Part shown: in pieces, positions 2,598 through 62,561 of the stretch
Layout: each line of letters opens with the position of its first letter
Numbering within the stretch: the stretch's first letter is position 1
NCBI RefSeq assembly: GCF_003667705.1
Contig: NZ_CP033019.1
Location: 4,588,001 to 4,652,000 of the forward strand
Source of the DNA: Janthinobacterium agaricidamnosum
GTDB taxonomy: Bacteria > Pseudomonadota > Gammaproteobacteria > Burkholderiales > Burkholderiaceae_D
DNA: 64,000 bases
Direction: 5' to 3'
Program-made: the position numbers and the translations under genes
Notes under the pieces: generated by a model
Databases searched by the model: none
Told to the model about the DNA's origin: nothing
Seen by the model: only the letters and a program-made list of their open reading frames with translations

Positions 2598-3842
2598 CTA
2601 CACCAGCGCCAGCTTGCGCAGGCGCCGCGTCGAGGGCCAGCGCGCCATGCCCGTCTCGTCGCGGATGGCGGCGCAGGCGGCCAGCACTCTTGCGCACTCG
2701 TCCTCGCGCAAACCCGCATTCAGGGTCAGGCGCACCAGCGAACGGTTCTTCGGCGTGGCTGGCGCACAGAAGACGGCGCCGTAGATGCCGTGCCGTTCCA
2801 GCGCCTTGCGCAGGATCAAGGTATCGGGTTCGCTGCCCGCTTCCAGCGCGATGATCTGCTCGGTGCCGTCGCTGACGTTGTAGCCGAGATCCGTCAACCC
2901 CTGGCGCAGCTGCACGCTGTGGCGGTGCAGCGCGGCGCGGCGGCCATCGGCGGCGCGGATGAAGTCGAGCGCCGCATCGAACCACGCCAGCTCGTGTTCG
3001 AGCAGGCAGGAACTGAAGATGGCTGGCCGCGAAGCGGACAAAAAATATCCCTTAAAACGGGCCGAACAGGTAATCAGCCCGGCCCGGCCCGCGAACGCCT
3101 TGGCCAGCGACGCCGTGCGGAAATGCACGCGCTCGGCCAGGCCCAGCTCCGCCACCAGCCCCGCGCCCTGCGGGCCGTGCGTGCCCAGCGAGTGCGACTC
3201 GTCGACGATCAGCATGCTGCCGCTGCGTTCGGCAATTTCCACCATGTCCAGCAGCGGCGCCACGCTGCCGTTGGTGCTGTACAGCGCATCGACGATGATG
3301 ATGCCGGGGCCATGCTTGTCGAGCTGGCGCTGCAGGTGGGCGCCATCGTTGTGCAGGAAGGCGACGGGCACGGCTTGCGCCGATTGCACGCCTTCCCACA
3401 ACGACGCATGCGCCTGCATGTCCAGATACACGGGAATGCCAGGTCCGGCCAGGCTTTGCAGCAAGCCCACGTTGGCGGCCCAGCCCGACTGCGCCAGCAC
3501 GCACGCCTCGCTGCCGAGAAAATCCGCCAGCTTGTGTTCCAGCCGGTGCTGGCGGCTGCCTTCCTGCAGGAACACGGACGACATCAGCATGGCGCCGCCG
3601 CCCTGCAAGACGCGCGCCTGGGCCGCCAGCAGCGCCGCCTCGCCGGCGATGTTCAGGTAATCATTACCTGCCAGCATGACCGCACCGGCCGGCACGGCTT
3701 GCCATTCATGCAGGTGTTCGCCGCCGAGCAGCTTCTCGATGCGCTCGACATAGTGCTCATCCATGCGCGCGCGCACGAAGGCGGGCATCCGTTGCTCGGC
3801 ATGGATGGCGCGGGACGACAGAGGGGAAAGGGCGTGTGACAT
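2598..3842 (-). CDS. jqsA: Alpha-hydroxyketone autoinducer synthase (CqsA/LqsA/JqsA family)
   Basis: PLP-dependent acyl-CoA transferase of the alpha-oxoamine synthase fold that makes an alpha-hydroxyketone signal (CAI-1 in Vibrio, LAI-1 in Legionella, JAI-1 in Janthinobacterium). It has 414 residues. The PLP site is visible as VDESHSLGTHG (Asp214, His217) and TASLAKAFAGRAG (Schiff-base Lys248). AGNDYLN near residue 60 and SSVFLQEGSRQHRLE near 90 are typical of CqsA rather than BioF or KBL, and no biotin or threonine-degradation genes are nearby. An AGGAG sits 5 nt before the ATG. The kinase and regulator genes that would sense the product lie divergently upstream. The product's chain length cannot be predicted. 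Confidence 0.93.
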   Translation of the reverse strand: MSHALSPLSSRAIHAEQRMPAFVRARMDEHYVERIEKLLGGEHLHEWQAVPAGAVMLAGNDYLNIAGEAALLAAQARVLQGGGAMLMSSVFLQEGSRQHRLEHKLADFLGSEACVLAQSGWAANVGLLQSLAGPGIPVYLDMQAHASLWEGVQSAQAVPVAFLHNDGAHLQRQLDKHGPGIIIVDALYSTNGSVAPLLDMVEIAERSGSMLIVDESHSLGTHGPQGAGLVAELGLAERVHFRTASLAKAFAGRAGLITCSARFKGYFLSASRPAIFSSCLLEHELAWFDAALDFIRAADGRRAALHRHSVQLRQGLTDLGYNVSDGTEQIIALEAGSEPDTLILRKALERHGIYGAVFCAPATPKNRSLVRLTLNAGLREDECARVLAACAAIRDETGMARWPSTRRLRKLALV

Positions 3843-3910
3843 AGGGACTCCTGATTGGTTGCGGTGGGAACTACCGCGTCCAACATGCGCGAGTCATCCG
3901 GCAAGAGTTT

Positions 3911-3950
3911 GATACAGCTCAACAGTTGTGCCGATATTGTGCTGATACAG
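3911..3950 (+). promoter_or_regulatory. Tandem 11-bp repeats in the jqsA-jqsS intergenic region
   Basis: Two adjacent copies TTGTGCCGATA (3926-3936) and TTGTGCTGATA (3937-3947) differ at one base. The block is also bracketed by GATACAG at 3911-3917 and 3944-3950, and it contains the palindrome CAACAGTTG (3922-3930, approx.). It lies between the divergent jqsA and jqsS starts and is poorer in GC than the genes, so it is the natural place for a shared control site. No regulator can be named. Confidence 0.45.
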
Positions 3951-4007
3951 AGGGAACCCGCCGATCATGTTGCATTGATAAGCCTCAACGAACACGCCCC
4001 CCTGATC

Positions 4008-5327
4008 ATGATGCATGCGCAGTCCCCTTCCGGAAAACGGTGGCAAGGCAAGCTGCTCCAGCCTTTCCTGCATTTCCACGACGCCATCGAACACACGCCC
4101 GTGCGGCGTGCGCAGGTGCGCACCCTGGCGCTCATCGGTGCACTGGGCATGCCCCTGTACTACGCGCTGTGGCATTACTTCTTTCCGCAAGAATACGAAT
4201 CGCCGCTGCTGCGCACGGTGGCGGCGCTGCTGTTCCTGCCCGCGCTGTGGCCCGGCCGCTTCAGCAATACCTGGTTCAGCGTCTACCTGTTCCTGGGGCT
4301 GACCTTCGAACTGCCGTTTTTCTTTACATATATGTTCCTGATGAACCACGCCTCGACGCTGTGGATGCATTCACTGCTGGTGGCGCTGGTCGTGCTGTTT
4401 CACTTCGATACGCGCATCGCCGTGCTGGCCTACCTGGGCGGCACCCTGCTGGCTTGCCTGGCGTTTGCCGTGGCCGGCGATCCCGCCTTCCTGCTCAGCC
4501 GCGACGTCTTGCAGCAATTGCCCGTGCACTGGTTCACGATTGCCGTGCTGTCCGTCGTCAAGGTGGGCCGCAACGTGGGCGCGCAGGAGAAACTGGCCGG
4601 GCTGGCGGCCGGCCTGGGCAGCGTGGCGCACGAATTGCGCACGCCCCTCGTCAGCGTCGAGGCAAACGTGCGCGGCCTGCAGCGCGGCCTGCAGCAAAAC
4701 CTGCAAGGGCAGCCGCCGGACGAGGCCAGCCGGGAAGCGCTGGCGCGCATCCAGTTCGAAGTGCGCCATATGCACCACATGATCGATCTGTTCCTGCTCA
4801 GCGCCAGCGCCGTCAACCGCAAGCTCGAAGCCAACGAGGCGGTGGCCATGCACGACAGCGTGACGGCCGTGCTGCGCCGCTACCCATTTACCAGCACGGC
4901 CCAGCGCGACATCGTCAAGGTCGACGTGCGCGCCGATTTCACGTTTCCCGGCCAGTCCGAGCTGTGCGTGGTCATCCTGCTGAACCTGCTGCGCAATGCC
5001 TTGAAAAGCATCCACCGCGCCGGCAAGGGAAGAGTGCGCATCATCATCGATGGCGCCCATCCCGTGCCGCGCCTGCTGTTCATCGATACGGGCTGCGGCA
5101 TCGCGGCCAGCCGCTTGCCGCTGATCTTCGACCGCTTCTATTCGTATCCCTCGCATAACGGCAGCGGCATCGGCCTGGCCCTGTGCCGGCAAATCATGCA
5201 AGCCTGGCAGGCGCGCATCCGCTGCGTCGCGCGCGAAGGCGCCTACGCCATCTTCGTGCTGGAATTTCCCCAGCCCCTGCCCGTGCCCACGCACAACCGT
5301 TTTCCATCCATCCACCGCGCGAGGTGA
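4008..5327 (+). CDS. jqsS: Sensor histidine kinase of the alpha-hydroxyketone quorum-sensing system (LqsS/JqsS-like)
   Basis: Membrane histidine kinase of about 439 residues, the presumed receptor for the JqsA product. About six hydrophobic segments occupy residues 38-185 with short loops and no large periplasmic domain, as in CqsS and LqsS. The phospho-acceptor is His208 in GSVAHELRTPLVSVEANVRG. The N box (LLNLLRNALKSI), G1 box (FIDTGCGI) and G2 box (NGSGIGLALC) are intact. I prefer ATG 4008 because the stretch before it looks like a promoter region, but in-frame starts at 3855 (TTG) and 3885 (ATG) exist, so the N-terminus is uncertain. The response regulator follows after 3 nt. Confidence 0.9.
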   Translation: MMHAQSPSGKRWQGKLLQPFLHFHDAIEHTPVRRAQVRTLALIGALGMPLYYALWHYFFPQEYESPLLRTVAALLFLPALWPGRFSNTWFSVYLFLGLTFELPFFFTYMFLMNHASTLWMHSLLVALVVLFHFDTRIAVLAYLGGTLLACLAFAVAGDPAFLLSRDVLQQLPVHWFTIAVLSVVKVGRNVGAQEKLAGLAAGLGSVAHELRTPLVSVEANVRGLQRGLQQNLQGQPPDEASREALARIQFEVRHMHHMIDLFLLSASAVNRKLEANEAVAMHDSVTAVLRRYPFTSTAQRDIVKVDVRADFTFPGQSELCVVILLNLLRNALKSIHRAGKGRVRIIIDGAHPVPRLLFIDTGCGIAASRLPLIFDRFYSYPSHNGSGIGLALCRQIMQAWQARIRCVAREGAYAIFVLEFPQPLPVPTHNRFPSIHRAR

Positions 5328-5330
5328 CGC

Positions 5331-6338
5331 ATGCAACTGCCCGTCTACACCCATCCGACCCTGACCGTATTGATCGACGACAGCGATTCCTTCCTGAAAA
5401 GCCTGGCGTTCCAGCTCGATCCCGGCCTGGCGCGCAAGACTTTCCACGACACGAGCAGCGCGCTGCACTGGCTGCGCCAGAGTACGCAGCCGGGCGAGAC
5501 GCCGCTGCACGTCAATTTCGACACGCAAAACCTGCCGCCCGACCAGTGCAACGTGGCGCTCGACATCGAACGCATCTGGCGCATCAGCGGCCAGGCGCAG
5601 CGCTTTGCCGTGCCGTCCGTGCTGGTGGTCGATTATTCGATGCCGCAGATGAATGGCCTGGAATTCTGCCAGGCCGTGCGCGACTTGCCGTGCAAGAAGA
5701 TTCTATTTACGGGCGCGGCCGATGAAAAGGTGGCCGTGACGGCCTTCAACCGGGGCTTGATCGACCGCTACATCAAGAAGAGCGACGACGATGCGCTCGA
5801 CATCCTGGAACAGGAAATCGTTGCCCTGCAGCGCGAATTCTTTCTGCAGCAATCGGAAACCGTGCGCGATCTGCTGATGCTGCACGACTACAGTTTCCTG
5901 CAAGACGAGGCGCTGGCCGCCGTCGTGCACGAGCTGTGCCAGCGCCACGGCTTCGTCGAGTTTTATATTTTCCCCAATCCCAGCGGCATCCTGTTCTTCA
6001 CGCGCGACGGCCACGCCAAGCTGATGATCATCGAGACGGAACGCAGCCTGCACACGCAGTATGAAATGGCGCGCGACAGCGACGCGCCCGATTCATTGCT
6101 GCAGGCCCTGCTGGAAATGCGCGTGATTCCCTACTTTTCCGATGCCAACAGCGACGGCATGTACGCGGCGCAGATAGGCGAGAACTGGTTTCGCTACTGC
6201 GCCGCGCCCACCATCTGCCTGGGCGGCGTGACGTATTTCTGGGCCCTGTTCGACGTGCCGACGCACCAGCTGGGGCAGCCGGTGATGTCCTACGCGCAAT
6301 TTCTGCGCGCAGGCGCGGGCGACGGCGTCATTGTTTAG
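5331..6338 (+). CDS. jqsR: Response regulator of the alpha-hydroxyketone quorum-sensing system (LqsR/JqsR-like)
   Basis: Cytoplasmic regulator of 335 residues. The receiver domain has the acidic pair Asp16-Asp17, phospho-acceptor Asp101 in VLVVDYSMPQMNGLEF, and Lys149/150 in DRYIKK. An insertion of roughly 60 residues separates the acidic pair from Asp101, a feature of LqsR-type receivers. The C-terminal half (residues about 160-335) has no recognisable helix-turn-helix, again like LqsR, so how it changes gene expression is not evident. It is in an operon with jqsS and overlaps the convergent permease gene by 4 nt at their stops. Confidence 0.9.
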   Translation: MQLPVYTHPTLTVLIDDSDSFLKSLAFQLDPGLARKTFHDTSSALHWLRQSTQPGETPLHVNFDTQNLPPDQCNVALDIERIWRISGQAQRFAVPSVLVVDYSMPQMNGLEFCQAVRDLPCKKILFTGAADEKVAVTAFNRGLIDRYIKKSDDDALDILEQEIVALQREFFLQQSETVRDLLMLHDYSFLQDEALAAVVHELCQRHGFVEFYIFPNPSGILFFTRDGHAKLMIIETERSLHTQYEMARDSDAPDSLLQALLEMRVIPYFSDANSDGMYAAQIGENWFRYCAAPTICLGGVTYFWALFDVPTHQLGQPVMSYAQFLRAGAGDGVIV

Positions 6339-8866
6339 CCTTCCCTTAAGGTCTGCAGCGGCGGATGTTTCAAGACATTGCGCAAACCCAGCCAGCCGCC
6401 GGCGATCGCGCACAGGGCGCCGGCCAGCAGGCCGAAGGCCCACACGCCCGGCGCGAAGCTCCAGGCGAACTTGAACTGGTACGTCGCCAGGGCCCAGCCC
6501 ATGGCCGCCGCGCCCGATGCGGCCAGCAGGCCGGCCAGCGCGCCGACGAGGGAAAACTCGATCAGCTGCGCCTGTGCCAGCTGGCGCCGCGTGGCGCCCA
6601 AGGCGCGCAGCAGTCCCGCTTCGCGCGTGCGCTCGTCCTGCGAGCCCATCAAGGCCGCATACAGCACCAGCAAGCCCGAGGCCAAGGTAAAGGCAAACAG
6701 GAATTCGACGGCCGTCACCACCTGGTCCAGCACGCCCTGGATTTGTTTCAGCACGCCGCCCACGTCGACCACCGTCAAATTCGGATAGTCGCGCAGCAGG
6801 GCGTTGCCCAAGTCCGCCTGCGCAGGCGGCAGGTGGAAGGCCGTGATCCACGTCTGCGGCGTGTCCGCCATGGCGGCCGGATTGATGATGACAAAGAAAT
6901 TGACGCGCATCGAGCCCCATTCCAGCTTGCGCAAGCTGGTAATGGCCGCTTCGACGCTCTGACCGGCAATGTCGAAGCGCAGCTTGTCGCCCAGCTTCAG
7001 CTTCAATGTCTTGGCGATGCCCTCCTCCACCGACGCTTCCGCCGGCGCGCCGGGCTTGTCGCTGAACCACTTGCCGGCCACGAGCTTGTTTTCTTCCTGC
7101 ATGGCGGCCATCGTCGACAGATTGAATTCGCGGTCGGCCAGGCCCTTGGCGCGGTCGTCCTCGTACGTGGCTTCCGTGATGGCGTTGCCGTTCACGGCCA
7201 CCAGGCGCCCGCGTATCATCGGATACAAAGGCGCATTGGCCACGCCCGCCTGCGCCAGGCGCGCGGCGATCGGGTCCTTCTGCTCGGGCAGGATATTGAT
7301 CATGAAACGGTTCGGCGCATCGGGCGGCGTGGCGTGGCGCCAGGCCACCATCAGGTCGCCGCGCACCACGGTCAGCAGCAGCAAGGCCATCAGGCCCAGG
7401 GCCAGCGACACCACCTGGATGACGGTGGCGCCCGGGCGGCGCTGCAATGACGTGACGGCAAAGCGCCAGCCCTGATGCTTGAAGGCGCCGCGCAGGCTTT
7501 TCAGCGACTTGATGCCCAGCCAGCCGGCCAGGGCGAACAGGGCGAAGCCTCCCAGAAAACCGGCCGCCGTCAGCAAGGCCAGTTTCACGTCGCCCGCCTG
7601 CCACAACAGCAGCACGACGAAGGCGGCAATGCCGAGGCCGTAGGTGGCCAGGGCCAGCGCCTGCGGTGGCTCCTGTTCGCGGCGGATCACCCGGTTATGC
7701 GGCACATTGCGCAACTGCAAAATCGGCGGCAGGGCAAAGCCCAGCAACAGCAGCATGCCGGTTGCCACGCCCTGCAGCGCGGGCAGCAGGGACACGGGCG
7801 GCAAGTCGCTCTGCACGAGCTTGCCCAACAGCTCCAGCAGCACCAGGTGGCCGCCGAAGCCCACCATCACGCCGATCACGCTGCCCACCAGGCCCACCAA
7901 TAAAAATTCGATCACGTACATGGCCGTGACCTGGTTTTGCGTCAGGCCCAGGCAGCGCAGCATGGCGCAGGCGTCGAGGTGCCGCAGCATGAATCGGCGC
8001 GCCGCCATGGCCACGGCGACGGCCGCCAGCATGGCCGACAGCAGGCCGACGAGGGACAGAAAACGGTCGGCGCGGTCCAGGGTCGATTGCATCTGCGGGC
8101 TGCCCGATTCCAGCGATTCGATGCGCACGCCTTTGATGGACTGCGCCTTGATCTGGCTCTCCAGCGAGGTTTGATATTGCGCAAGCTCGGCCGCCTTGGC
8201 GGGCGGCGCCGACAGCAGCAGCCGGTACGACACGCGCGAGCCGTTCTGCACCAGCGCCGTGGCGGCCAAGTCGCTCAAGGGCAGCATCACCCTCGGGGCG
8301 AAATTGAGGAACGATGCGCCGCGGTCCGGTTCGCTGGCGATCAGTTGCGTGACGGTAAAGGCCTTGTCGCCCAGGGTCAGGGTGTCGCCCAGCTTCGCGT
8401 TCAGGCTGGACAGGATAGCCGCATCGACCCACACGGTGCCGGGCGCAGGCACCTGGCTGGTCGCCTGGCCCACGGCATCCTGCGCTTCGCTGGCGTTGGT
8501 CGTGATTTTCAGCTTGCCGCGCTGCGGGTAGCCGGGCGAGACGGCCTTGATGGACGCCAGTTGCGACAGCGATCGCTCGCCCTCGCCCGCCTGCGCCATG
8601 CTGGGGAACGTCACCGTGTCGGCCAGGATAAAACCGCGCTTCTGCGCTTCGGCGCGCCAGGCCGCATTGACGGGCTGGTCGGCGCTGATGACGAGGTCGG
8701 CCCCCAGCAGCTGGTGCGCGTCGCGGTTCAGGCCCGCGCGCAGGCGGTCGACGAAGAAGCCGACGGCCGACAGGGCCGCCACGGCGACGATCAGCGCGAC
8801 GAGCAGGAAACGCAGTTGCCCGGCGCGCCAGTCGCGGCCGGTCATTTTCAGGGAGAGGCGGAACAT
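6335..8866 (-). CDS. FtsX-family ABC transporter permease (YbbP-like)
   Basis: Large inner-membrane permease of 843 residues. One N-terminal membrane helix (about residues 20-42) is followed by a long periplasmic MacB-type domain, then repeated FtsX cores with four-helix bundles near residues 260-430 and 480-510, and a final set near 715-835. This double-FtsX plan matches YbbP-type permeases, which pair with a LolD-like ATPase and are often encoded beside a TesA-like thioesterase. No ATPase gene is adjacent here, so the partner must be encoded elsewhere. Adenosine deaminase lies 36 nt upstream on the same strand. Confidence 0.85.
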   Translation of the reverse strand: MFRLSLKMTGRDWRAGQLRFLLVALIVAVAALSAVGFFVDRLRAGLNRDAHQLLGADLVISADQPVNAAWRAEAQKRGFILADTVTFPSMAQAGEGERSLSQLASIKAVSPGYPQRGKLKITTNASEAQDAVGQATSQVPAPGTVWVDAAILSSLNAKLGDTLTLGDKAFTVTQLIASEPDRGASFLNFAPRVMLPLSDLAATALVQNGSRVSYRLLLSAPPAKAAELAQYQTSLESQIKAQSIKGVRIESLESGSPQMQSTLDRADRFLSLVGLLSAMLAAVAVAMAARRFMLRHLDACAMLRCLGLTQNQVTAMYVIEFLLVGLVGSVIGVMVGFGGHLVLLELLGKLVQSDLPPVSLLPALQGVATGMLLLLGFALPPILQLRNVPHNRVIRREQEPPQALALATYGLGIAAFVVLLLWQAGDVKLALLTAAGFLGGFALFALAGWLGIKSLKSLRGAFKHQGWRFAVTSLQRRPGATVIQVVSLALGLMALLLLTVVRGDLMVAWRHATPPDAPNRFMINILPEQKDPIAARLAQAGVANAPLYPMIRGRLVAVNGNAITEATYEDDRAKGLADREFNLSTMAAMQEENKLVAGKWFSDKPGAPAEASVEEGIAKTLKLKLGDKLRFDIAGQSVEAAITSLRKLEWGSMRVNFFVIINPAAMADTPQTWITAFHLPPAQADLGNALLRDYPNLTVVDVGGVLKQIQGVLDQVVTAVEFLFAFTLASGLLVLYAALMGSQDERTREAGLLRALGATRRQLAQAQLIEFSLVGALAGLLAASGAAAMGWALATYQFKFAWSFAPGVWAFGLLAGALCAIAGGWLGLRNVLKHPPLQTLREG

Positions 8867-15377: not shown

Positions 15378-15393
15378 ATTGATAATAATCAAT
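15378..15393. promoter_or_regulatory. Palindrome ATTGAT-N4-ATCAAT, Fur-box-like
   Basis: Perfect 6-bp arms with centre AATA. The GATAATAATC core resembles part of the Fur consensus, and a TonB cluster lies downstream, but the distance to tonB is over 500 bases, so the link is weak. Confidence 0.25.
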
Positions 15394-15819: not shown

Positions 15820-15908
15820 TCGGCGACGTCCCGGATACGGCTGGAGCTTTGTGTCGTCATTTTGGGGTTCAGTTGCAAGACAAGAGATGGTATTTGGAGA
15901 AAGCAGGC

Positions 15909-45121: not shown

Positions 45122-45679
45122 TCAGGCGCGGCGGCGGCGCGCGGCAAAACCGACCAGGCCCAGGCCCAGCATCAACATGCCGTAGGTCGCTGGCTCAGGC
45201 ACGGCCGAGACGGAACTGTAGGCGCGGAAATTGCTCAGGCCGCGCGGCAGGTTGTTGATGGTGATAAGCGTATTGGCGGCCAGCGGCGCGTCCCAGTGGA
45301 ACAGCAGTTCGCCACGGCCATAGTGCACGGCCAGGTAGTCAAAGCTGGACTTGACGGTGAACGAACCGGACTTACCGCTTTCCAGGTCGCCCTGGGCGGC
45401 AAAGACCAGGGAACCGGTGCCGCTGGATGGCAGACCAAACTTGCTGCTGACCAAGCTCTGGATGGCGGCCGCGCTTTGCGGGCCAGACGGGTTGGCGCCG
45501 TCAAACACCCAGACCGAGTCCGCTGCCACGCTGCCGTAGGTGACGGTCTTGCCGCCCACCAGGAAGCCGCTCATGGCGGGATCGGTGATTTCCACCCAGT
45601 TCGCCGCCTGGGCCAATGGCGCCAGGCAAGCCGAGACAGCAAGGCAGAGACCCAGCACAGCATGTTTAGTCGTGTTCAT
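45122..45679 (-). CDS. PEP-CTERM sorting domain protein
   Basis: 185-residue exported protein with a signal peptide (about 1-25, ending AQA). The body has no recognised domain. The C-terminus is a clear PEP-CTERM tag: VPEPATYG, a hydrophobic helix (MLMLGLGLVGFAA) and RRRR. Such proteins are cut and sorted by exosortase/EpsH to the cell surface; no exosortase gene is in the window. An AGGGGAAAT ribosome site precedes the ATG. Confidence 0.88.
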   Translation of the reverse strand: MNTTKHAVLGLCLAVSACLAPLAQAANWVEITDPAMSGFLVGGKTVTYGSVAADSVWVFDGANPSGPQSAAAIQSLVSSKFGLPSSGTGSLVFAAQGDLESGKSGSFTVKSSFDYLAVHYGRGELLFHWDAPLAANTLITINNLPRGLSNFRAYSSVSAVPEPATYGMLMLGLGLVGFAARRRRA

Positions 45680-46017
45680 AATTTCCCCTATTGATAAATT
45701 TCAAAAAACACAATATTGATTATATTTTTGTTATATTTTTTTGCGATTGAGCAAAAGATATCATTCAGGAAATCAAAATGCAATAAAAGAAACAAATTTT
45801 ACCATTGGCATTTTTAATCGATCTCACCAGTTTCTTGCCGAGTCCGGCTATCAAGGGGCTTGCCACCCTCCTTGCCATGACCAGGCGCTGGTCTGGGAAG
45901 CAGGATTGTTGTAGATCGGCACATGCCAAGCGGCAATGGCAAGCCTGCAGGTATGCGTGGTCATCCTGACACGCAATCGGCTACCATGGGGTTTACTCTT
46001 CTTGATGACGGATAACC
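45680..46017. other. AT-rich intergenic region with PEP-CTERM promoter
   Basis: About 340 bases without a gene. The first 140 are very AT-rich. On the minus strand a TATAAT occurs at 45724-45719, about 40 nt before the PEP-CTERM ATG, with no good -35 box. Nothing further is recognised up to the DUF2314 gene. Confidence 0.5.
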
Positions 46018-61631: not shown

Positions 61632-62561
61632 TCAGGCGCGGTCGGCCACGCGTTCGCCCATGATGCCGGACGGGCGCAGGGTCAGCACGATGATCAGCAC
61701 GATGAAGGCAAAGATATCCTGGTAATTGCTACCGAGGAAACCAGCGGTGAGATAGGCGATATACCCGGCACCAAGGCTCTCGATGAGGCCCAGCAGGATG
61801 CCGCCCAGCATGGCGCCATAGATATTGCCGATGCCGCCCAGCACGGCCGCGCAAAATGCCTTCAGCCCGGGAAGCGCTCCCATCGAAAACTTTACCGAGG
61901 CATAGTTGGCGCCCCACATCACGCCCGCCACGGCGGCCAGCGCGGCGCCAATGGCGAACGTGGCGACGATGACCTTGTCGGAATCGACACCCATGAGGCC
62001 CGCCACGCGAGGATTCTCCGCCGTGGCCCGCATGGCGCGGCCCATCTTGGTTTTCTCAATAAGTAAGACCAGGGATCCCATGGAAATGGCGGCCAGGGCC
62101 AGCAGCAATACTTGCGTTTGGGAAATAACAGCGCCACCGATGTGCAGCGGGTCGGTCGACAGCAACTGGGGAAATGGCAGCGGATTGCGCGTCCAGATCA
62201 TCATGGCGAAGGTTTGCAGCAGGATGGAGACGCCGATGGCGGTAATCAGGGGAGCGAGGCGGGGGGCGTTGCGCAGGCGGCGGTAGGCGACCCGCTCGAT
62301 GAAGATGTTGACCAGAATACAAATGGGGATGGCGCCGAGGATGGCGGTGGCCAGTTTCAAATAGCCGGGCCAGTCCGGCACATAAATGCCCAGCAGCTTG
62401 AGAATGGTCAAGCCCACCATGGCGCCGATCATGAGCACGTCGCCGTGGGCGAAGTTGATCAGGTTCAACACGCCATACACCATGGTGTAACCGAGGGCGA
62501 CTAAGGCATACATGCTGCCCAACACCAAGCCGTTGATGATCTGCTGGATGAATGTATCCAT
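61632..62561 (-). CDS. livH: Branched-chain amino-acid ABC transporter permease LivH
   Basis: 309-residue permease, first gene of the operon. Diagnostic blocks are QQIINGLVLGSMYALVALGY, GVLNLINFAHGDVLMIGAMV and AVLGGIGNIYGAMLGGILLG. ATG 62561 is used; the 24-residue longer form would start in leader sequence. The operon imports Leu, Ile and Val or related compounds; the specific substrate depends on a binding protein not encoded here. Confidence 0.93.
   Translation of the reverse strand: MDTFIQQIINGLVLGSMYALVALGYTMVYGVLNLINFAHGDVLMIGAMVGLTILKLLGIYVPDWPGYLKLATAILGAIPICILVNIFIERVAYRRLRNAPRLAPLITAIGVSILLQTFAMMIWTRNPLPFPQLLSTDPLHIGGAVISQTQVLLLALAAISMGSLVLLIEKTKMGRAMRATAENPRVAGLMGVDSDKVIVATFAIGAALAAVAGVMWGANYASVKFSMGALPGLKAFCAAVLGGIGNIYGAMLGGILLGLIESLGAGYIAYLTAGFLGSNYQDIFAFIVLIIVLTLRPSGIMGERVADRA

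Follow-up and report, generated by a model that had tools for sequence, protein, structure and literature searches.

A proposed CRP/FNR-family reading of the JAI-1 motif at the alpha-hydroxyketone quorum-sensing locus of Janthinobacterium

Positions 2598-6338 of a 64,000-nucleotide stretch of Janthinobacterium agaricidamnosum (contig NZ_CP033019.1, positions 4,588,001 to 4,652,000; this whole stretch is called the window here) are the Janthinobacterium JQS locus for alpha-hydroxyketone quorum sensing, in which the gene of a signal synthase (jqsA) stands divergent from those of a sensor kinase (jqsS) and a response regulator (jqsR). The three JQS genes are already known from Janthinobacterium through papers of 2013 and 2016, and the locus is nothing unusual in this genus. 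What appears to be new is our reading of the published "JAI-1 motif" as a putative operator of a CRP/FNR-family regulator. As part of the best overall explanation, the TTGA-N6-TCAA boxes in front of jqsA, jqsS and vioA are probably operators of this kind. To the wider proposal we give even chances: the JAI-1 motif would be an FNR/ANR/DNR box, the JAI-1 regulon of Oxalobacteraceae a CRP/FNR regulon fed by LqsR-type signalling, with hydroxyketone quorum sensing gated by oxygen or nitric oxide, and one lineage, having lost the synthase, would be listening-only and carry a truncated haemoglobin gene at the box. It is still unexplained how an LqsR-family regulator lacking a recognised DNA-binding domain acts on promoters, and PMC10653808 calls for further study of this family. 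If the CRP/FNR reading is right, only a handful of genes in this genome would come into question for the missing transcription factor, the violacein and antifungal behaviour of Janthinobacterium would be tied to oxygen or nitric oxide, and it would become clear why the motif outweighs the signal in the published reporter data (PMC5080296).

The divergent intergenic region between jqsA and jqsS (165 bp, 3843..4007) holds two sites of the published form: box 1, TTGATACAGCTCAA, at 3909..3922, an imperfect FNR box with C for A at position 10, and, 66 bp from it, box 2, TTGATAAGCCTCAA, at 3975..3988, also an imperfect FNR box. A sequence-only reading of this DNA had proposed that the divergent layout allows shared control of signal making and sensing, and the double box supports that proposal. 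The pattern TTGAN6/7TCAA occurs 8 times in the window, against 1.2 expected. Our main comparison covered 80 distinct but related loci, namely 79 named loci and the window, 69 with jqsA and 11 without. At least one TTGA-N6-TCAA lies ahead of jqsS in 79 of them, while each of the other gaps from 0 to 16 was found in 0 to 3 loci, and N7 in none. The sole locus lacking an exact box (L084) carries, at the equivalent position, a copy in which one core letter differs. A further 34 loci of the genus (L031-L064, many from the same genomes as named ones), kept outside these counts, gave a box in 33, the exception (L058) being the counterpart of L084. The second box stands exactly 66 bp off in 39/80 loci. 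Intergenic length varies from 113 to 226 bp in the 69 jqsA-bearing loci including the window (jqsS starts extrapolated from the alignment), and nine columns of the 69 aligned intergenic regions are 99-100% conserved, eight of which are the half-site letters of box 1. Within 1.01 million bases of the named loci, 124 of 130 TTGA-N6-TCAA sites fall in the 250 bp before jqsS.

PMC5398030 describes the ANR box as similar to the FNR site, TTGAT-N4-ATCAA, and the DNR site as indistinguishable from it. Among 57 distinct boxes, 24 match TTGATN4ATCAA perfectly, and T5 or A10 is found in 53; in a set thinned by JqsR identity to 21 loci, T5 or A10 is present in 31/32 boxes, and the half-sites read TTGAT in 47/64 and TTGAC in 9/64 cases. 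The whole genome has 305 N6 sites against 28 for a backward-read control, 20 N7 sites against 14, and 66 perfect TTGATN4ATCAA against 0 for the reversed control. As a spacing control we counted TCAA-N8-TTGA, which occurs in 28/80 loci and in 25 of them begins within the right half of a box, giving a third half-site. The jqs boxes resemble the FNR/ANR/DNR box in sequence, in the N6 between TTGA and TCAA, in a predicted position near -41.5 and in sharing their pattern with a site at ccoN in this genome, and differ from it in that only 24 of the 57 distinct boxes are perfect. An operator of the LuxR/HapR type is TTGAT-N6-ATCAA; this candidate was ruled out, as N8 between TTGA and TCAA was found in 0/80 loci.

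The box also stands ahead of ccoN and vioA in this genome. A perfect FNR box lies 83 bp ahead of the profile match to ccoN, which is a classical FNR target. Ahead of vioA (NF053546, 675.7 bits, cut-off 600), at 243 bp from the ATG, stands a perfect FNR box, just where the JAI-1 motif has been published (PMC5080296), and a box lies 243-247 bp ahead of the vioA ATG in 11 of 13 vioA loci (11/12 within the genus), ten of these boxes being perfect. According to PMC5080296, the motif emerged from a comparison of the promoters affected in jqsA mutants; deletion of 49 bp including it lowered vioA promoter activity by 75-90%, and loss of jqsA changed it only about two-fold. Since deletion of the motif hits vioA harder than loss of jqsA does, the motif must do more than answer JAI-1, a gap that would be explained if the box is read by a general regulator. 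The main text of PMC5080296 contains none of FNR, ANR, CRP, oxygen, anaerob- or transcription factor, and no report of the JAI-1 motif as an FNR-type site was found among the listed titles and abstract openings of open-licence papers. As a side observation, vioA was matched at E 1e-60 in only 12/37 genomes of the genus, against 35/37 for JqsR, so that JQS is much wider than violacein.

The predicted position of box 1 would fit that of an activator. A -10-like hexamer, CATGTT (3882..3887, minus strand, weak consensus), would belong to a presumed leftward jqsA promoter and would put box 1 at about -40.5. Across the loci, a leftward hexamer with A2 and T6 stands 29 or 30 nucleotides (nt) from the box 1 hexamer in 59/68 cases (29/37 after thinning), a description only, as this spacing was noticed and counted on the same loci. 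Neighbouring-spacing pairs between 10 and 55 nt without 29 and 30 reach at most 16 loci (10 after thinning), and pairs beyond 55 nt, past the presumed start site, up to 28 (16 after thinning). By this -10-like element, box 1 is predicted to be centred at -40.5/-41.5 of jqsA, the start sites being predictions as well. Positions near -41.5 are the class II activator position of CRP/FNR proteins, and a dimer on box 1 would there raise jqsA expression, that is, signal production. On the other strand, GATATT (3933..3938, plus strand) resembles a -10 and would serve a presumed jqsS promoter; its -35-like partner, TTGATA, falls on the left half of box 1, and the same dimer, covering this possible -35, could hold back the sensor. 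A fixed jqsS -10 across loci gave a moderate signal only, and a third TTGA half-site starts 8 nt after a box in 25/80 loci, where GATA lies behind box 1, which weakens the reading of this place as a -10. A leftward A2/T6 hexamer was also observed 24 nt from box 2 in 22/40 loci.

The regulator of the locus offers no obvious way to read such a box. JqsR (jqsR, 5331..6338, plus strand, 335 amino acids, Asp101) matches Legionella LqsR (6sy9) across residues 3-325 with E 1.9e-49, in agreement with the LqsR type named in the sequence-only reading, and a full-length structure model of JqsR matches LqsR too. Its receiver domain is its sole Pfam match. The regulator, which that reading described as lacking a DNA-binding motif and as having an output unexplained from sequence, still fits that description: for its output half, profile and fold searches gave no convincing DNA-binding match, and the model of this half (mean predicted local distance difference test score, pLDDT, 74.5) convincingly matched LqsR alone, the other rows being weak. 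A GGDEF-like output domain has been reported for LqsR; the fold search with this half showed no recognised helix-turn-helix or GGDEF among the matches listed, a result that excludes neither. JqsR, being without a detectable DNA-binding domain, presumably must act via another protein or a small molecule, and the failure to find such a domain makes a CRP/FNR-family protein the likeliest reader of the box. The output of JAI-1 would then be gated by the cue to which this regulator responds, with oxygen, redox or nitric oxide as the likeliest. HTH_Crp_2 was matched 14 times in the genome, 9 times above cut-off. One match is FNR (L148, at genome position 5910709; 268 bits, cut-off 228) and carries iron-sulphur-type cysteines by eye. 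Another protein (L149) has an FNR-type recognition helix without the FNR cysteine set, judged by eye. A third (L184, the same gene as L155) is below every family cut-off, and we take it to be DNR/FtrB-like from its helix, seen by eye. As candidate readers, L149 or L184 may suit better than FNR.

Other explanations of the box were weighed against this one. It is unlikely that a dedicated quorum-sensing factor outside the CRP/FNR family, activated by JqsR, has the box as its operator and that the FNR likeness of the box is convergence. Such a factor would agree with the origin of the motif in promoters changed in jqsA mutants (PMC5080296), with the many intergenic boxes that deviate at position 5 or 10, and with the confinement of the box before jqsA/jqsS to one family among the loci examined. 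It agrees poorly with the genome-wide enrichment of N6 and hardly of N7, with the T5/A10 preference, predicted -41.5 position and identical ccoN pattern that fit CRP/FNR, and with the box kept upstream of jqsS in 11 loci of genomes without a jqsA match. Direct binding of the box by JqsR through its output half is, in our judgement, very improbable, even though the locus encodes no regulator besides JqsR, the output half shows good conservation (L092, L114 and L122 omitted from that alignment), and a profile search listed one DNA-binding protein, the MarR-type 3f3x, over residues 162-261, the linker and part of the output half, at a non-significant E of 0.2.

Scarcely credible, too, is that the palindrome is no operator and consists of two back-to-back sigma-70 -35 elements of divergent promoters. 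One sigma-70-like promoter, with -35 TTGATA at 3909 and -10 GATATT, was indeed found where 0.1 was expected, and the GATA of the presumed jqsS -10 is partly conserved. Against this, the half-sites favour TTGAT over TTGAC, the opposite of a -35, and a minus-strand A2+T6 hexamer stands 16, 17 or 18 nt from the right half in 3, 3 and 0 of 68 loci (13 at 15 nt). The TTGAT preference and the missing minus-strand -10 both disfavour back-to-back -35 elements, which would also leave the strict N6, the second box at 66 bp and the vioA box unexplained.

Several points weigh against a CRP/FNR-family operator. Position 10 is C in both boxes of the window, which are therefore imperfect FNR sites, and the 66 bp from one to the other do not amount to complete turns of the helix. 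Box 2 may have another element next to it: the ninth conserved column of the intergenic alignment is 3964 (100% in 69 loci), and 3965, 3967 and 3968 are at 90-94%. The loci compared are related, not independent, and the -10-like element that places box 1 is weak. The jqsS start is unproven; the reading frame is open upstream to TTG 3855, and an upstream start would put the boxes inside the coding region. Violacein is made with oxygen, when classical [4Fe-4S] FNR is inactive, and oxygen-dependent violacein synthesis makes FNR itself awkward as a simple activator. Among the open-licence papers listed, none was found to report binding, expression or knockout data on a CRP/FNR protein of the genus. 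Within the family, the divergent locus L204 has no box, and L203 has two. Finally, 0/16 jqsA loci from other families have a box in the 300 bp upstream of jqsA or jqsS (L065 and L066 are counted here; L218 was scanned on the jqsS side only, L210 and L215 on the jqsA side only, and L207 over 237 bp), so that the box is no general part of hydroxyketone signalling; as a general property of hydroxyketone loci it was ruled out. From elsewhere, Fnr has been reported to regulate prodigiosin negatively in aerobic Serratia culture (PMC8485047).

The second conserved element, read as GATCAT in the window strain, covers 3963-3968, just ahead of box 2. In the other families of the order, most of the 16 loci have jqsA convergent to jqsS-jqsR, and two have it in tandem with a same-strand kinase gene; three (L207, L208 and L217) have a site elsewhere, and L066 has a two-mismatch site before jqsS. 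Of 19 records of plasmid LqsR homologues listed, three were examined and none has a box nearby. On a Massilia violaceinigra plasmid, an LqsR-type regulator (43% identity) lies beside a DUF4902 protein (L199, 4495-6633), and this stretch has no annotated synthase or kinase and no box.

The occurrence of the locus in the genus goes well beyond chance. The closest named loci are from Janthinobacterium (97% JqsR identity), and JqsR was matched at E 1e-45 or better in 35 of 37 genus genomes, including that of the window; the two genomes without a match are G014 (82% complete) and G022 (98% complete). All 34 genus loci compared besides the window have the same divergent order of jqsA, jqsS and jqsR. 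In one draft Janthinobacterium genome, jqsR (L140 / L064) is broken by a frame change and a stop, and L140 was omitted from the JqsR tree.

Eleven named loci of Pseudoduganella, Duganella and Massilia eburnea (L119, L121-L129 and L144; around 4600-7000) have jqsS-jqsR without jqsA. A search at E 1e-40 found no jqsA in these 11 genomes, several of them drafts, and matched both control genomes. The 11 loci form one clade in the JqsR tree (support 97/97) amid jqsA-bearing loci, which suggests a single loss of jqsA in this Pseudoduganella-centred clade. Box and kinase motifs are retained in 11/11, and the clade is a possible listening-only system. Its loci have a truncated haemoglobin gene across the box from jqsS, divergent, with its start 26-43 bp from the box start (e.g. 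L129, 4285-4749), and PF01152 was found in both haemoglobins tested. In the window, a truncated haemoglobin gene flanks the locus at 1 to about 300 on the minus strand. The idea that the box was ancestrally a truncated-haemoglobin element was ruled out, because none of 66 jqsA-bearing loci has a box within 400 bp upstream of a haemoglobin gene.

The three reading frames of the locus are all uninterrupted, and its name and the divergent layout jqsA / jqsS-jqsR in the sequence-only reading were borne out by profiles, structure matches and neighbouring genes; Lys248, His208 and Asp101 were all found where it had placed them, His208 only if jqsS starts at ATG 4008. The first gene, jqsA (2598..3842, minus strand), encodes a synthase of the CqsA/LqsA type of 414 amino acids, whose pyridoxal phosphate (PLP) lysine, Lys248, sits in SLAKAF. 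This PLP-lysine pattern is present in 67/69 jqsA-bearing loci, and the remaining two (L130 and L132) read SLAKAL. JqsA scored 542.5 bits on NF005526 (cut-off 428), which is the NCBIfam model for alpha-hydroxyketone autoinducer synthases, and its best solved structure is Vibrio cholerae CqsA (3hqt, E 4.5e-100), followed by the serine palmitoyltransferase family (E 6.7e-39). By membership in this family model JqsA is classed as an alpha-hydroxyketone autoinducer synthase, with a predicted hydroxyketone product, and it would make the signal.

That JqsA is instead an enzyme of the biotin or threonine pathway (BioF/KBL), and the locus not one of quorum sensing, is practically out of the question. 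The PLP superfamily is common to both, and JqsA does match bioF (230.2 bits, cut-off 426.45) and the glycine C-acetyltransferase model PRK06939 (177.7 bits, cut-off 460) below threshold. The only cut-off passed is that of the hydroxyketone synthase model, CqsA leads as best structure by about 60 orders of magnitude, and LqsS/LqsR-type genes adjoin jqsA. The profile scores and structure ranking rule out the BioF/KBL identity, in line with the sequence-only reading, and the published violacein loss and partial rescue also speak against it: deletion of jqsA lowered violacein by 83%, and cqsA and lqsA complemented it partly, according to PMC3566124. The same paper reports that jqsA failed to complement cqsA mutants of V. 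cholerae or V. harveyi and that the structure of JAI-1 was not determined in that 2013 study. The sequence-only reading had called it established that homologues make and sense CAI-1, LAI-1 and JAI-1; JAI-1 is not fully so.

The kinase gene jqsS (4008..5327, plus strand) encodes 439 amino acids with His208. A simple hydropathy scan gave six hydrophobic segments ahead of the H-box, and Pfam HisKA and HATPase_c were both above cut-off; the membrane domain is called by hydropathy, and the LqsS/CqsS-type class comes from the segments, Pfam domains and gene neighbours. The HE-x-RTP box is present in 80/80 loci. In 20/80 loci the aligned jqsS stretch has a stop near its end, past the kinase motifs, which was taken as the normal gene end. 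By its family, JqsS would sense the signal in the membrane and pass phosphate to Asp101 of JqsR.

Among known systems, the JQS of Janthinobacterium sp. HH01 and HH102 has an identical gene set and organisation (PMC3566124, PMC5080296), with the same motif upstream of jqsA and 243 bp before vioA (PMC5080296). PMC3566124 described it in HH01 in 2013, and PMC5080296 followed in 2016 with RNA-seq of HH01 and HH102. We found no gene difference from the published JQS; the CRP/FNR reading of the motif is absent from the main text of PMC5080296. The Lqs system of Legionella pneumophila (LqsA, LqsR, LqsS) has a gene order unlike that of JQS. In Legionella it is lqsA-lqsR-hdeD-lqsS. As to the Cqs system of Vibrio cholerae, no solved structure is closer to JqsA than that of CqsA, and CqsS has a receiver domain of its own. 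The cqsA/cqsS cluster is described as without an LqsR homologue (PMC3566124). Ralstonia solanacearum has in PhcX an LqsR-family regulator like JqsR, which is reported to lie apart from lqsA and lqsS and to adjoin phc genes (PMC10653808).

Elsewhere in the window, a perfect FNR box, TTGATAATAATCAA, lies at 15379-15392, shortly past the end (15369) of an open reading frame (ORF) and ahead of a gene, TonB-like by eye, at 15849. Another site, TTGATAAATTTCAA, at 45691-45704, precedes by 11 bp an ORF on the minus strand (45122-45679) whose product is PEP-CTERM-like by eye. A pair of TTGA-N6-TCAA sites, 57 bp apart, lies at 62398-62411 and 62455-62468.

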